From an uncultured Flavobacteriales bacterium (lineage in GTDB: Bacteria > Bacteroidota > Bacteroidia > Flavobacteriales_E > Vicingaceae), in the NCBI GenBank assembly GCA_913056345.1, contig CAJXMH010000002.1:62001-126000 (forward strand): 64,000 nucleotides of DNA, in the 5' to 3' direction. Below, piece after piece: positions 27,215 to 35,809 of the stretch. A program made the position numbers and the translations under genes. The stretch's first letter is position 1. Each line of letters begins with the position of its first letter. The notes under the pieces are model-generated. The model did no database searches, had not been told where the DNA came from, and saw only the letters and a list, made by a program, of their open reading frames with translations.

Positions 27215-28432
27215 CTATTTGAAAAATAACTTAAAATAGAAAGCTGGTGACCTAAACTGTTTCCGCAGGTCTACATCTTCTAATGATGCGGTGATCAAGG
27301 TTCTAAATGCTTCGTTTTTATTAGCTTTTTTTACCACGTAATTGAAGAGCCAAGGATATTTGAGCATTTTCTGCAGAAATCTACTAATTCTCAATTCAGA
27401 CCACATCCGTCGATAAAGTTCATGGTCGTAAGCGCGGTGAAAAGCTGCATCAAAACGTTTAACCTTGAAGGCGTCCAAGATATGGTCGGCGGCAACACGA
27501 CCACTCCGAATGGCGTTGCCAATTCCTTCTCCAGTAAAAGGGTCGATCAAACTAGCAGCATCACCTAAAAGCAAATAACGATTTCCGGAGCATTTTACTT
27601 TTCTAGATCCTATGGGTAAGCCAAATCCTTTTACTTTTTCTATGGCTCGAGCATTCTTAAAGCGATCTTTTAGCTTAGGGTGAGTGGTGATTAGCTCTTG
27701 CATCATCTTTTTTAAATCAATCTTATGCTTGCTGATGGCAGAAGAAAGCATGCCTATCCCTACATTGGCTTGATCGTTGGGGAGGGGAAAGATCCACAAG
27801 TAGCCTGGCAAGGCTTCTTTGTAAAAATGCAATTCTATTCCCGAATCGGGAGTTATGCCTTCCACGCCTTGGTAATACTGTCTTAAGCCTGCACAATAAT
27901 GGTCTTTATCAAGCTGCTTGCCTTGCAAATTCCGTTTTACAAATGAATTGGCCCCGTCTGCACCCAAGATTATTGGTGCATGAAAAGTACCCTGATCAGT
28001 TTTCATGCTAACCCCTTGCTCGCTTATACTCAAGGCTTGGGTTTGTACACCTTCTAAGATATCTAGATGCTCGGTCTTCTTCAATTGTTGAAATAAGAAA
28101 TTGTCAAAATCTATTCGCTTTGCTACGTAGCTGTCTAATTTTTTTTTAAAGTCTAGGTCTAATCGTTCGTGGTTAGGGGCAAAGAAGTGAATCTTTTTCG
28201 CAGGCCTTTTTTCGCTTAGTTTTTGAAAGTCGGCGATTAGCTTTTCATCAATTAAGCGTAACTGGTTTGTTACGTCTGGGCTCAGCGCATCGCCGCAAAT
28301 TTTATCGCGTGGGAATGTCCCTTTTTCGATCAGCGCAACTTTTAGCTTGCTTTTGCCTAATTGGTAGGCGGCAACACAACCGGCGGGACCAGCCCCGACA
28401 ATTATTACATCAAATTGTTTTTTTTCTTCCAA
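27215..28432 (-). CDS. Geranylgeranyl-reductase-family FAD oxidoreductase
   Basis: A flavoenzyme of about 405 residues. The N-terminal FAD motif is VIIVGAGPAGC, followed by the family-specific FPRDKICGDALSP. A second conserved block, GDAASLIDPFTGEGIGNAIRSG, contacts the flavin. The family saturates prenyl chains (geranylgeranyl groups, archaeal-type lipids, menaquinone side chains), but members also modify other lipids. No ATG exists near the start; TTG at 28432 (LEEKKQFDV) and TTG at 28465 are both possible, and I use the nearer one. It lies next to an isoprenoid-synthase-like gene and a prenyl-type methyltransferase. A decayed paralogue survives at 34572-34757. Confidence 0.82.
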   Translation of the reverse strand: MEEKKQFDVIIVGAGPAGCVAAYQLGKSKLKVALIEKGTFPRDKICGDALSPDVTNQLRLIDEKLIADFQKLSEKRPAKKIHFFAPNHERLDLDFKKKLDSYVAKRIDFDNFLFQQLKKTEHLDILEGVQTQALSISEQGVSMKTDQGTFHAPIILGADGANSFVKRNLQGKQLDKDHYCAGLRQYYQGVEGITPDSGIELHFYKEALPGYLWIFPLPNDQANVGIGMLSSAISKHKIDLKKMMQELITTHPKLKDRFKNARAIEKVKGFGLPIGSRKVKCSGNRYLLLGDAASLIDPFTGEGIGNAIRSGRVAADHILDAFKVKRFDAAFHRAYDHELYRRMWSELRISRFLQKMLKYPWLFNYVVKKANKNEAFRTLITASLEDVDLRKQFRSPAFYFKLFFK

Positions 28433-28591
28433 ACAATGTTCTTTAAAAGTGCTAAATAAAAGCAATTAAACTTTCACTTTGTTTCTCGCTTATTTGACCT
28501 GCCTTCATGAATAATAGAGGTTTAAAAATCTGTAATTGAGAAAACAGTGGATAAATAGCTTGCGGCCATGAATTGTTTCTGCATAGTAGTT

Positions 28592-29641
28592 CTAAGAGGG
28601 ATTATTATTCAACCTAAAGTCAAAGTTATAGGATTTATGACAGTTCTTATAGCGGTAATTAAGGACCCGAGGAAACCAATAACCAACTAACTTTTTAGCT
28701 TGTAACTGAGGTTGTACACCAGCCTTTGGCAAAGTAGCCAATTTTTCCTGCGAAAATTCTTTCTGACAAAGTAAATGATACCGGTATAATTTGGCAATAA
28801 TACCGATTCCCATGCTGTATAGGGTAAAGAGCAAAAAGTCTTTTCGGCGAGTTTCAAAAGGGCATTTTTTGAGCAAAGAAAAGGCAATCACCCTTTGTTG
28901 GTCAAGATCGCTTGCAATTTGGCTTAAGCTTTTCCGGCAAGTACCGAATGTTCTCATATTGGCTTTTAAGTCTTTATGCAGATCTTGAGCATCATTACAA
29001 AATTGAATATAGCCACCTACCTCATACCATGTCCTTTCTTCTAATTCATTTATCTCTCCCTCCAGCATAGCTCGGATAAAGAGTAAGGTGTAGCCGCATT
29101 TTTTAATGCAAATCTGATCTACTTCTGCTTTGGAAAGATTTGGATCAAATTGTCGCTTGCTTTCGATCTGAGCCTCATAAAGTAGCTCGTAATAATTTCG
29201 AACTACTTCTGCAGATTTTCCTAAAGAATCAAAAAAAGTATGGTAGAGTAAACTGTAGAGCTTAAAAATATCCCCTTCCGTTGAGCTATTTTTTGCAGGT
29301 CTTTTCAATGCTCTGATCTCTGCTATTCCCAAATCTAGATCATCGATAATGAGGTCACAAATTACTACCACAGCACCGCTAAGAAGATAACCTCTCCGTT
29401 GAGCGGGACTCGACTTTATGCCCATCACTTCGTTCAACATTTCGGCAGAGTAAATGAATTCTGCCATGTACCACTGCATTTTTGAAAGGGCATTAAAGGG
29501 CAGCTTTGGGTCTTTGCTTAAGTCAAAGTCAGAAGTGTATTCTTGCAGTAGTTTTTTGGCCTCACGGTGGTACTTTGAATTGGTGTGATTAAACTTTTGG
29601 ATGTTAAAAACTGATTTGATCAACTTCGAGAAAAGGTTCAT
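28592..29641 (-). CDS. Divergent class I isoprenoid-synthase-like protein
   Basis: A 349-residue all-helical, soluble protein that I cannot place in a named family. Two acid-rich motifs sit at the spacing expected for metal-diphosphate binding in class I prenyl or terpene synthases: DLIIDDLD at 96-103 and NDAQDLHKD at 216-224, about 115 residues apart, each on a predicted helix. The first departs from DDxxD (D-x3-DD-x-D). The C-terminal 60 residues are rich in Lys/Arg/Tyr/Asn. Neighbours are a geranylgeranyl-reductase-like enzyme downstream and a tocopherol-type methyltransferase upstream, all on one strand, which supports isoprenoid chemistry. The substrate and whether it condenses or cyclises are unknown. 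Confidence 0.6.
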   Translation of the reverse strand: MNLFSKLIKSVFNIQKFNHTNSKYHREAKKLLQEYTSDFDLSKDPKLPFNALSKMQWYMAEFIYSAEMLNEVMGIKSSPAQRRGYLLSGAVVVICDLIIDDLDLGIAEIRALKRPAKNSSTEGDIFKLYSLLYHTFFDSLGKSAEVVRNYYELLYEAQIESKRQFDPNLSKAEVDQICIKKCGYTLLFIRAMLEGEINELEERTWYEVGGYIQFCNDAQDLHKDLKANMRTFGTCRKSLSQIASDLDQQRVIAFSLLKKCPFETRRKDFLLFTLYSMGIGIIAKLYRYHLLCQKEFSQEKLATLPKAGVQPQLQAKKLVGYWFPRVLNYRYKNCHKSYNFDFRLNNNPS

Positions 29642-29669
29642 CCGTTTACGTTTTATGAGGTGGGTTGCT

Positions 29670-29677
29670 CAAAGTCA
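29670..29677 (-). promoter_or_regulatory. Probable -7 element of the isoprenoid-synthase-like gene
   Basis: TGACTTTG on the minus strand matches TAnnTTTG at all but one position and ends 28 bp before the ATG at 29641. A TTG about 15 bp upstream may serve as the -33 element. The 115-bp gap to the methyltransferase gene and this site suggest the gene can be transcribed separately. Confidence 0.35.
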
Positions 29678-29756
29678 GCCCATAGAATCAGGCAACTAAA
29701 GTAACCTTCTTTTACTTTTTGTACTGAAAATTATTGGGAATAGATTTACAGGCAGT

Positions 29757-30617
29757 TTACGCTTTCTCAAATACCATCAACATGTATTTCCATTCTCCTT
29801 TTTCAAAGGTTTTCTTTTGGGCTAAGCAGGTCTTATAGTGGATGGCTGCAAATCTTCTGGCTCCAAATAAGAAATTATAGATCTTGGATCCAAAACGACC
29901 AATCAGATATGCTTTATAGATTTTATCTACCGATTTTTGGATTTGAGGGCTTGCATCATACTCTACTTTAGTTGAAAAGCCATGAGCTGCGGCTACTTCT
30001 TTAATCTCTTCAACGGAAAGAATATCGCTAATTGCCCAACCGTTTAGCATCATCTTCATATACTTATTATCAGAAATGTCTGCCGGTTTCGGTTTAAGGG
30101 TGTCAGCTACTAAGATCCGTCCACCAGGCTTCAGCACTCTACTCATTTCTTTAAAAAAATCGCCTTTGTTTTGAGCAGACCCTAAACTCTCAATAGCCCA
30201 ACTAATGTCAAAGCTCTCCTTTTCAAAAGGGGTTTCGGTGTAACTACATTTCATAAATTCACAGTGCTCCGACAAGCCTTTTTCTTTAGCAAACTTTGTT
30301 GCAGTTTCTACTTGTTGCTGACTTAAGGTTACTCCAACCGTTTTGCACTTTTTGTGCGAAGCCAAATAAAAACTCGATCCTCCAACCCCGCAACCAGCAT
30401 CAAGTACTCGATCACCTTCTTTTACCTCTCCCAATTCCATTAAAACTCGGTTTAAGTTCAAGATGGCATCAGCCGTGGTTTTGGTAGTAGCGTCCCAAAC
30501 ACCATAATGAAGTCCCAAAGACTTTTCCATTTTCCACCACATGCGATAGTGAACTTCGGTTTGGTCATAATAATCTTCTATATCCTGATAACTAAAATTC
30601 TCCATATTACGCTGCAT
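29757..30617 (-). CDS. SAM-dependent methyltransferase, tocopherol/prenyl-acceptor type
   Basis: A 286-residue class I methyltransferase. Motif I is VLDAGCGVGGSS, followed by VGVTLSQQQV, the acidic loop SWAIESLGSA, and the LKPGGRILVADT strand. The N-terminal LGLHYGVWDATTKTTADA resembles gamma-tocopherol methyltransferases and related C- or O-methyltransferases acting on prenylated or terpenoid substrates. It has no membrane helix; the C-terminal basic and aromatic helices could contact lipid. The start could be the ATG at 30617 or the one at 30605 (MENFSYQDIEDYY). It lies upstream of the isoprenoid-synthase-like gene on the same strand. The actual acceptor is unknown. Confidence 0.78.
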   Translation of the reverse strand: MQRNMENFSYQDIEDYYDQTEVHYRMWWKMEKSLGLHYGVWDATTKTTADAILNLNRVLMELGEVKEGDRVLDAGCGVGGSSFYLASHKKCKTVGVTLSQQQVETATKFAKEKGLSEHCEFMKCSYTETPFEKESFDISWAIESLGSAQNKGDFFKEMSRVLKPGGRILVADTLKPKPADISDNKYMKMMLNGWAISDILSVEEIKEVAAAHGFSTKVEYDASPQIQKSVDKIYKAYLIGRFGSKIYNFLFGARRFAAIHYKTCLAQKKTFEKGEWKYMLMVFEKA

Positions 30618-32910: not shown

Positions 32911-32946
32911 AAAAAGCCATCTGCCCTCAGTGGATGGCTTTTTTTA
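32911..32946. terminator. Bidirectional intrinsic terminator between convergent genes
   Basis: AAGCCATC (32914-32921), 11-nt loop, GATGGCTT (32933-32940), with a T run to 32945 on the plus side and an A run from 32910 on the other. The hairpin can stop transcription from both the PIG-L gene (plus) and the GT-C-like gene (minus), whose stop codon lies inside the plus-side T tract. Confidence 0.85.
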
Positions 32947-34569
32947 CGGCTTCACTTCCCATTTTATCAATTTCGCTCCTTCTTCGTTTTTCCATAGCTC
33001 AATTTCTTCAAGCTTTTTTCCTTCAGCTTGAAAAGCTAGTATCCGTTGCTTAATGGATGGCCAACCTTTGGTTTCGGGACCAGTGTATACATAAAGCTGT
33101 TTGCTTTTATTGAAAAGTCGATTAATTTCTACGAAATTATCCCAGTGATTAAATTTTTCTGTCCAGCCAACATGCAGGTAAAAATTGGGGAAATCTTCCC
33201 TAAGTTGTTCTTTAAAATAAGTCTTTCTGCGATAGGTATGCATAAAACCAAAGGCGTGAGCATAGGCCGGAAAGGGAGTACCCCAGTAGGGGGCGTCTAC
33301 AATTAAAGAAGCTCCTTCATCTTGATCAAGCAAAGCGTTTATGGTTTTAGCTTCCATTGCCCGCTTTTCAGCCACGGTTTGTTGGGTTTTGAAATGATTT
33401 CTTGACGCTGTAGAAGTACCGCTGATCACAAATACTCCAATTAGCACACAGGCTAAATTCAAAACTTTCTTCCTTAATCCGTGGAGTTTACTCCAAAACA
33501 CATAAGGAAAAATAAACCACAGCGCACTTAAAACATAAAAGGGCATAAAATAATGCAGGGCAAAATGCTTAAGCGTTAAAAATAGAAGCAGTAGCATTGC
33601 TAGTACAATCGATAAAAGACTCCTTCTTAGTCTTTTTACCGTAGCTGATGTTGCTGGCTTGGCTATTAAATAAATCAGTAACATACAATTCAAGCCGAAA
33701 AGCATCCAATACAAGGGAAAATCTTGAAATAAGGTAAGCGCATTAGTTGGTATATCCGTTAGCTTGATCAATCCTGCCTGCCCACTTCCATGCATACCAC
33801 TATGGGTGAGCATATTGCTGATCCATTTAAAAGACTCCTCGAAATTGGTGAAAAGCGGATAAGCAAAAAGTAAAATAGCTAAGAAGGTATTTCTTGAAAC
33901 CACCCAAAAGTTTCGCCAAGAATTGACTAACAAAACATAGGGAACTAAAATAAAGGGAGCAAAAGACAACTTGCAAGCAATCCCAAAGCCAATCAATAAA
34001 GGAATTTGCCATCTCAACTTTTTCTCCACGGCTTGATTGCCTTCTTCGAAAATATAAGAGCTGATCAAGGCAACGAGTAAAACAAGTGGAATGATCAGAG
34101 TGGTTTCTGCCAAAAAACGTGAAGCAATGCTCAACAGATGGTGATGGCTAAAAAGACCGAGGAGCAAGAAAAAGCTGTAGGTAATCTTTCTACTGGAAGA
34201 TCTCACTTTCAAAGCAGCCAAGAAAGAAGCAGCTCCTATGATTAGTAATTGCATCAAGTTAGCCGCTGTAAGGTAAAATTCAGGCCGTTTAATAAAGTCT
34301 AAAACAAAGGGAGAATATTCAGCAAAAGGCCGAAGTAATAAACTACTCAAACCAGCTATAAAGATGGTAGGGGTAGCAGGATGGTGAATGAAATTGATAG
34401 CAAAACTACCGGTACTTACTACAATGCCATTATAAAGTAGCGTATATTCAGGGTCGGTGGAATTTTGGTAAAAGGCTCCATAATTTGCATGGAAAAAGGC
34501 AGCAATAAAAACAAACAGGCTAGGTATGATCAGCAAATACCAATGCTTTAAGATCAGTTGTTTTTTCAC
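32944..34569 (-). CDS. Polytopic membrane protein, putative GT-C-fold glycosyltransferase
   Basis: A 541-residue protein with about ten to eleven membrane helices and a C-terminal extramembrane part of about 120 residues. The layout, with an early loop holding acidic and aromatic residues (HANYGAFYQNSTDPEY) and the long hydrophobic core, resembles GT-C enzymes that use polyprenyl-phosphate sugars. No exact motif confirms this. It begins with GTG at 34567-34569, two bases after the stop of the decayed oxidoreductase remnant, so translation may still be coupled to that short frame. The C-terminus lies at the bidirectional terminator. Substrate unknown. Confidence 0.6.
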   Translation of the reverse strand: MKKQLILKHWYLLIIPSLFVFIAAFFHANYGAFYQNSTDPEYTLLYNGIVVSTGSFAINFIHHPATPTIFIAGLSSLLLRPFAEYSPFVLDFIKRPEFYLTAANLMQLLIIGAASFLAALKVRSSSRKITYSFFLLLGLFSHHHLLSIASRFLAETTLIIPLVLLVALISSYIFEEGNQAVEKKLRWQIPLLIGFGIACKLSFAPFILVPYVLLVNSWRNFWVVSRNTFLAILLFAYPLFTNFEESFKWISNMLTHSGMHGSGQAGLIKLTDIPTNALTLFQDFPLYWMLFGLNCMLLIYLIAKPATSATVKRLRRSLLSIVLAMLLLLFLTLKHFALHYFMPFYVLSALWFIFPYVFWSKLHGLRKKVLNLACVLIGVFVISGTSTASRNHFKTQQTVAEKRAMEAKTINALLDQDEGASLIVDAPYWGTPFPAYAHAFGFMHTYRRKTYFKEQLREDFPNFYLHVGWTEKFNHWDNFVEINRLFNKSKQLYVYTGPETKGWPSIKQRILAFQAEGKKLEEIELWKNEEGAKLIKWEVKP

Positions 34570-34571
34570 CT

Positions 34572-34757
34572 TTAGTTAAATAGCAATTTAAAGCAGAAGG
34601 AAGGAAATTTGAATTGCTTACTGAGGTCTACATTTTCAACCGTTTCGCTACGAGCGCTTCGCATAGTATTACCAATTCCTTTTCCGGTAAAAGGATCGAC
34701 TAAAGCTGCGGGACTTGCGCCTAAAATAATCACCTCGTATTGCTGTACTTTACTCAA
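34572..34757 (-). pseudogene. Remnant of a second geranylgeranyl-reductase-like gene with two in-frame internal deletions
   Basis: A 61-codon frame whose three parts match three separated regions of the intact enzyme at 27215-28432. QQYEVIILGASPA equals the N-terminal FAD motif. ALVDPFTGKGIGNTMRSA equals the block about 280 residues later. VENVDLSKQFKFPSFCFKLLFN equals the final 22 residues (intact gene: LEDVDLRKQFRSPAFYFKLFFK). Roughly 275 and 70 codons are missing, both without a frameshift, and a start (TTG 34757) and stop remain. It cannot fold as a flavoenzyme. It lies 21 bp after the cytochrome gene stop and 2 bp before the GT-C gene start, as if the original operon spacing were kept. 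Confidence 0.85.
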
Positions 34758-34778
34758 GAGGGTTAGGTTTCAGTGCGT

Positions 34779-35258
34779 TTATATTGATTTCTGTTGTATC
34801 GGTCTTTGCAGCTTTTTTATTCTAACTACAGGACCGGGACAAAGTGCTTGATGACAGCTTAAACAGTTTTCTACTAGCGTATTGAAATGCTTTTGGGCTT
34901 CATCTCCTTTAGCATTTTCAAGCTTTTGCAAGTGATTCAGATAAACCTTTGCAAAACCTTTATACTCGGCAGATGCTGCTTTTTCAGGTTCCGTAGCATG
35001 AGCGGTGAGGATTTTTCCGTGATCAAGTTTAAGTTCTACCGCTTCTCCCGCAGCAATTTGCTTTTTGATGCGGTCTGCTTCATCGTACATAGAGCGCATC
35101 ATGAGAGCTAATTCACTATCCCCATTTGGGTTTAAAGGTCGCTTTGTTTTTACCTTTCCTTGCTGCTCTTGTTTTTCGGCTTCTTTTATTTCTGCCTGAC
35201 AGGCGAAAACAAAAGTTAGAATGAAAAAAATGGTAATTAGTTGGATTGATCGTTTCAT
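34779..35258 (-). CDS. Cytochrome c'-like lipoprotein (class II, C-terminal heme site)
   Basis: A 159-residue lipoprotein (lipobox VFAC, Cys20) with a single heme-attachment motif C132-L-S-C135-H136 close to the C-terminus. The preceding region is a helical bundle (ALMMRSMYDEADRIKKQIAAGE, YKGFAKVYLNHLQKLENAKGDEAQKHFNTLVENC). This arrangement is that of class II cytochromes (c', c556). Such proteins transfer electrons or bind NO/CO in the periplasm. A basic tail of about 20 residues follows the heme site. It may head an operon with the oxidoreductase remnant and the GT-C-like gene. Confidence 0.78.
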   Translation of the reverse strand: MKRSIQLITIFFILTFVFACQAEIKEAEKQEQQGKVKTKRPLNPNGDSELALMMRSMYDEADRIKKQIAAGEAVELKLDHGKILTAHATEPEKAASAEYKGFAKVYLNHLQKLENAKGDEAQKHFNTLVENCLSCHQALCPGPVVRIKKLQRPIQQKSI

Positions 35259-35332
35259 AGCTTAGAAATAATAATCCAAATTAAAGAATTTATCTGGCTG
35301 GCAATAAGCACTAGACTAATTTTACAAACTGC

Positions 35333-35809
35333 TTAATTTGAGCAAATTATAATTACCATTACGGTCAAGCTCACAAAAACTCTGAGGTAGTAGCTGTATA
35401 TGTGTAAGCCACTTAAAATCAAAATATTGTTTTCTGTGCTGCTATTCAACTGCCCTTTCATAAACTTGCTACGGTAATTGATGAGCGCTTCCTCACCATC
35501 ATTGAGGCTCCATTTACTCGACCACAGATTATCGAATTTCCACAGATAACGCTTCTCTCCTAATTCTACCTCTGCTTCACTTTTTAGAGAATGGTAGATA
35601 ATCTCTCCTACTACTTCTTGGCTTTCTGACTCTATAATTTCCACTTTGTTGTTGAACACACCTTTTCGCTTAAAAAGGTATCGTTCGGAATTTAATAGGC
35701 CATCTTCAGTAGAAGAAAATAGCTTGAAGTTCATTTCTCCCACTTCTTCATCTTCCCTCAATAAGTGATACTTGCTACTAAAGAAACCTTCTTTCCATCT
35801 TAATTCCAT
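35333..35809 (-). CDS. Hypothetical protein with a C-terminal membrane helix
   Basis: A 158-residue protein of unknown family. Residues 1-120 are a beta-rich domain with repeated short strands (LRWKEGFFSSKYHLL, YLFKRKGVF, EVVGEIIYHSL, YLWKFDNLWSSKWSL). One hydrophobic helix lies at the end (YYLRVFVSLTVMVIIIC), so it may be tail-anchored with the domain in the cytoplasm. The strand pattern is somewhat reminiscent of Tubby/LURP-like phospholipid-binding barrels, but I would not assign that. A near-consensus -7 element (TATTTTTA) lies 9 bp upstream of the ATG. Confidence 0.6.
   Translation of the reverse strand: MELRWKEGFFSSKYHLLREDEEVGEMNFKLFSSTEDGLLNSERYLFKRKGVFNNKVEIIESESQEVVGEIIYHSLKSEAEVELGEKRYLWKFDNLWSSKWSLNDGEEALINYRSKFMKGQLNSSTENNILILSGLHIYSYYLRVFVSLTVMVIIICSN

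Follow-up and report, generated by a model that had tools for sequence, protein, structure and literature searches.

The locus and its reading frames

The 61-codon open frame studied here runs from TTG to TAA on the minus strand of the window (the whole stretch of 64,000 nucleotides analyzed), where it occupies positions 34572..34757. As its alignment with an intact paralog and its score on a family profile show, it carries the remnant of a gene of the geranylgeranyl reductase (GGR) family. An in-frame TGA codon lies just 5' of the TTG (34757), the TAA ends at 34572, and the plus strand is not open across 34572-34757 in the frame read. The upstream gene (34779..35258, minus strand) encodes a 159-aa protein with a lipoprotein-like N-terminus and a CxxCH motif, and ends 21 bp from the start of the remnant. 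The downstream gene (32944..34569, minus strand), which the earlier note called GT-C, encodes a 541-aa protein which no Pfam or NCBIfam model matches above cut-off. As that note had claimed, the stop codon of the remnant precedes the start of this gene by 2 bp: the TAA is followed by two bases and then by the GTG start codon.

The intact paralog (27215..28432, minus strand) belongs to the NCBIfam family TIGR02032 (geranylgeranyl reductase family protein), with a score of 226.7 bits as compared to a cut-off of 158.8. The paralog plausibly starts at a TTG codon, which aligns with the TTG of the remnant, at the place where the start of the GGR family would fall. The codon-by-codon alignment between the two frames, in which the residues of the paralog are numbered on its 416-aa frame, divides the remnant into three pieces, all on the minus strand. 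Piece 1, the N-terminal Rossmann start (LSKVQQYEVIILGASPA; 34707..34757), consists of residues 1-17 and corresponds to residues 12-28 of the paralog; piece 2, the LxDPFTGxGIGNxxRSxR block (ALVDPFTGKGIGNTMRSAR; 34650..34706), consists of residues 18-36 and corresponds to residues 305-323; and piece 3, the C-terminus (SETVENVDLSKQFKFPSFCFKLLFN) with the TAA (34572..34649), consists of residues 37/40-61 and corresponds to residues 392/395-416. The pieces therefore stand in the same order as in the family, and the two frames end at the identical aligned C-terminal position (residue 416), which bears out the exact C-terminal match proposed previously. By comparison with the paralog, about 276 and about 64-68 codons are missing, each loss being a multiple of three. 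The earlier description of a 61-codon frame assembled from three GGR-like parts thus holds on the minus strand, and the losses of about 275 and about 70 codons given there are close to the values of about 276 and 68 obtained from the alignment, with the frame kept at both sites.

Relationship to the GGR family

Matches to GGR at an E-value of 1e-30 or better were found in 129 of the 395 genomes of the class, that carrying the remnant included. The set of 30 intact sequences used for comparisons consists of the paralog and 29 of 36 sequences drawn from the best matches among these 129 genomes. Those left out were the copies of the paralog itself (L014, L017, and L024), L003, which is the same gene as L045, the long or fused frames L054 and L006, and L015, which belongs to a shorter subfamily. 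On a profile of 29 homologs of the class, from which the paralog was excluded, the remnant scored 27.5 bits, whereas the maximum reached by 20,000 shuffled copies of it on the same profile was 6.5 bits. When the window was translated in six frames, the paralog alone outscored the remnant, and a 20-base pattern of the DPFTG block, searched for with up to 3 mismatches, matched the window at the two copies only, with 0.01 matches expected. A chance resemblance to GGR is excluded by the profile score as compared to those of the shuffled copies.

By itself, the remnant does not qualify as a member of the family (TIGR02032). It gave no TIGR02032 match at an E-value of 0.1, its score is below every family cut-off, it has no Pfam match, the N-terminal GxGxxG is altered, and the catalytic region that should link the FAD motif to the DPFTG block (about 276 codons) is absent. 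Two features of a deletion pseudogene are present, namely collinear pieces separated by internal gaps and a looser constraint at positions conserved among GGRs.

Deletion junctions

In the codon alignment, junction 1 falls within codons 16-18 (34704..34712, minus strand), where some 276 codons are gone, and junction 2 within codons 36-40 (34638..34652, minus strand), where some 64-68 codons are gone. The earlier note placed a shared GCAG at junction 1 (34709-34706, minus strand). In the register of this junction, the longest run of bases shared by the two sites in the 30 intact genes measures 1-4 bp (mean 2.6 bp), as compared to a mean of 1.9 bp in random in-frame registers, and runs of at least 4 bp occur in 4 of the 30 genes versus 6% of the controls, which is a weak signal. 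A short match is in part a consequence of the coding at this point, since at both sites an alanine codon precedes that of a small residue. A microhomology deletion through the GCAG is plausible but unproven, the parent sequence being lost.

A third loss of four codons near junction 2, where the remnant reads SETV and the family RETI, is conceivable; random 4-mers fit equally well 13% of the time, and the resemblance is not significant.

Decay of the retained residues

Among the columns of the alignment, 11 are invariant in the 30 intact sequences, and 4 of these are altered in the remnant: a G to S substitution in the FAD motif, E to K and G to A substitutions in the DPFTG block, and a Y to C substitution near the end. 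In a leave-one-out analysis on the same 30 sequences, 27 showed no altered invariant column and 3 showed a single one. Piece 1 has GASPAA in place of the GAGP[AGS]G of the aligned family, so that GxGxxG has become GxSxxA. The nonsynonymous distances to four other GGRs range from 0.42 to 0.51 in the case of the remnant and from 0.29 to 0.36 in that of the paralog; the synonymous distances to these four sequences are mostly saturated, as is dS between the remnant and the paralog. The altered invariant residues and the larger nonsynonymous distances indicate that the remnant is evolving under weaker constraint. If the excess stands for some 0.13 neutral substitutions per site, the frame would have stayed clear of new stop codons with a probability of about 0.42, so its being open is not in itself remarkable. 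That both deletions should keep the frame has a probability of 1 in 9 by chance.

These data also bear on whether the frame might encode a functional small protein of 61 aa derived from GGR, as its intactness and the survival of the best-conserved GGR blocks might suggest. The changes at the invariant residues, those of the FAD motif among them, and the lack of any Pfam match argue against this reading, as does the fact that no homolog of the short arrangement occurs in 40 other genomes, genome_contigs or viral_contigs. It was in these same collections that a 61-aa protein conserved as such in distant species, the finding which according to the earlier note would speak against gene decay, was sought and not seen. 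The matches in the 40 genomes are parts of larger frames or chance resemblances only, and the phage collection yielded no match. A functional small protein is therefore very unlikely. Seven weak matches from the 40-genome search, inspected singly, look like chance resemblances.

Origin of the parent gene and a second remnant

Among the sequences compared, the paralog is the closest to the remnant, with identity at 34 of 60 retained residues, while the next best of the 29 other GGRs reaches 29 of 59. In the IQ-TREE phylogeny, in which, as in the other trees, the remnant's residues 37-39 stayed unaligned, the remnant and the paralog are sisters with modest support (79.8 SH-aLRT / 72 bootstrap); the AU test carries no information here, as the best tree already contains the clade tested. 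With FastTree, the remnant adjoins a wider group including the paralog, L027, L028, and L052, and when the stub described below was added, the remnant paired with the paralog with a support of 0.55. The parent was thus likely, but not provably, a diverged duplicate of the neighboring intact copy, resulting from a duplication within the lineage; that the sister relation is only modestly backed by these trees tells against this origin. Within the family, a close full-length GGR at 1e-40 is carried by 1 of the 46 genomes, namely the present one, so that two separate acquisitions of GGR genes are also possible. A profile of 17 GGRs gave some match at 1e-6 in 16 of the 46 family genomes, the best outside the present genome being that in G050 (profile positions 4-356, 4.1e-42), which shows that more distant relatives do occur in the family.

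The intact GGR gene adjoins the genes for a 349-aa protein and a 286-aa methyltransferase (27215-30617 of the window, minus strand). For the 349-aa protein, neither Pfam nor NCBIfam gives a match above cut-off, and an aspartate-rich DDLD motif in it is reminiscent of isoprenoid synthases; the three genes are perhaps a small terpenoid-modifying cluster.

On another contig of the same genome (G000:C4:130969-131154, minus strand; locus L026, 1647..1465), a 60-aa N-terminal GGR stub was identified, which matches TIGR02032 at 3.9e-15 over residues 5-56. It opens as a normal GGR with an intact N-terminal FAD motif, followed by a short tail and a stop codon, and no further GGR pieces were found in the 3.1-kb L026 locus. 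Its nearest relative is L028 (28/48 identical residues), the paralog reaching 24/48. The presence of this second remnant suggests that surplus GGR copies have been lost repeatedly in this genome; as a single close GGR is intact and two others are shrunken, plain gene loss is the simplest account.

The genome is a draft in 66 contigs, and the short frame might accordingly be an artefact of assembly or amplification masking a full-length gene. The junctions, however, probably share few bases at most, which is not enough to mislead an assembler into collapsing them, and the residues within the retained pieces have decayed too; a second GGR remnant on another contig likewise makes an artefact highly improbable.

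Neighboring genes and the question of a translated leader

The genes flanking the remnant were compared with their relatives in other genomes, among which the genus is represented by the present genome alone. Very few genomes carry the 541-aa membrane gene: matches at 1e-40 occur in 2 of the 395 genomes of the class, the present one included. Its single strong relative in these genomes, that in G004 (41% identity), has as its upstream neighbor a LysR-type gene (as labeled from its sequence) and no GGR, and no GGR piece occurs beside the three relatives of the 541-aa gene. Relatives of the CxxCH gene are present in 30 of the 46 family genomes, again including the present one, and no GGR piece was found near them at the 11 loci read in the family. 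One other match at the loci of the flanking genes, with an E-value of 0.42, looks like a chance one.

Relatives of the CxxCH gene lie inside 2 of 22 GGR regions of the class, both of which were known before the count was made: one (L044, 926-1321) is located 88 bp from the GGR gene in G107, and the other (L090, 2474-2971) about 3.7 kb from that in G131. Both belong to other families of the class, and these locations may be due to chance. In at least a few more genomes, a GGR gene and a CxxCH relative share a contig and stand tens of kb apart. We make no claim about an ancient GGR-CxxCH neighborhood.

The tight spacing at the locus raises the question as to whether translation was kept after the enzyme function had gone, ribosomes ending at the TAA resuming at the GTG that follows after 2 bp, and mutations breaking the frame being selected against. 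This would agree with the fact that the remnant, on the same strand as its neighbors, stands 21 bp behind the upstream gene and 2 bp ahead of the downstream one, that both losses are in frame with no stop codon since, and that no terminator-like sites were found in 34000-35400. The 2-bp spacing, however, is equally expected if the parent merely stood in an operon, and the absence of a stop codon so far is unsurprising (P ~0.42). The GTG of the 541-aa gene has an A of its own at -3, which is given in PMC6847099 as a positive determinant of initiation in Flavobacterium johnsoniae; the TTG of the remnant has a C at this position, which makes its start context poor. The RNA around the junction between the remnant and the 541-aa gene is no more structured than shuffled sequences (z 0.78). 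Promoter predictions showed no excess (2 versus a mean of 2.8 in shuffled sequences), and in the literature searched, no earlier case was recognized in which the remnant of a gene is retained as a leader. We consider it unlikely that translation of the frame has been maintained by selection, and slightly less likely still that the enzyme copy was turned into a minimal translated leader that delivers ribosomes coming from the upstream gene to the GTG of the 541-aa gene. To our knowledge, the mRNAs of the host phylum are devoid of Shine-Dalgarno sequences; if a leader did exist here, dead genes could persist as control elements in bacteria lacking these sequences.

Probable gene decay at the locus

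The 61-codon frame is most probably an in-frame deletion pseudogene of a GGR-family gene. A gene of this family would once have stood here, with the lipoprotein-like gene upstream and the 541-aa gene downstream, likely as a diverged duplicate of the intact copy. Two large internal stretches would then have been lost, perhaps by joining at short homologies, their lengths being multiples of three by happenstance, and substitutions would since have gathered at residues which the enzyme needs, leaving a frame which probably yields no useful product. The earlier reading of the locus as what in-frame deletions left of a second GGR-like gene is supported by the ordered homology, the closeness of the paralog, the common position of the TTG, and the loss of invariant residues. 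That the frame was kept in both losses and has suffered no later stop or frameshift speaks mildly against a pseudogene.

The remnant is an ordinary case of bacterial gene decay, and provides a small, clear example of how redundant paralogs vanish. It also calls for caution in annotation, as such remnants resemble intact small genes. Like members of the GGR family (TIGR02032 / Pfam GGR_cat PF22578), it keeps parts of the FAD motif, the DPFTGxGIGN block and the C-terminus, but unlike them, it is short of some 345 codons, comprising most of the FAD and substrate domains. It resembles the bacterial deletion pseudogenes formed under deletional bias, as described in PMC5447742, in that a redundant gene has been cut by internal deletions and has undergone point decay; it differs in still forming a single open frame from start to stop, both deletions having remained in frame.
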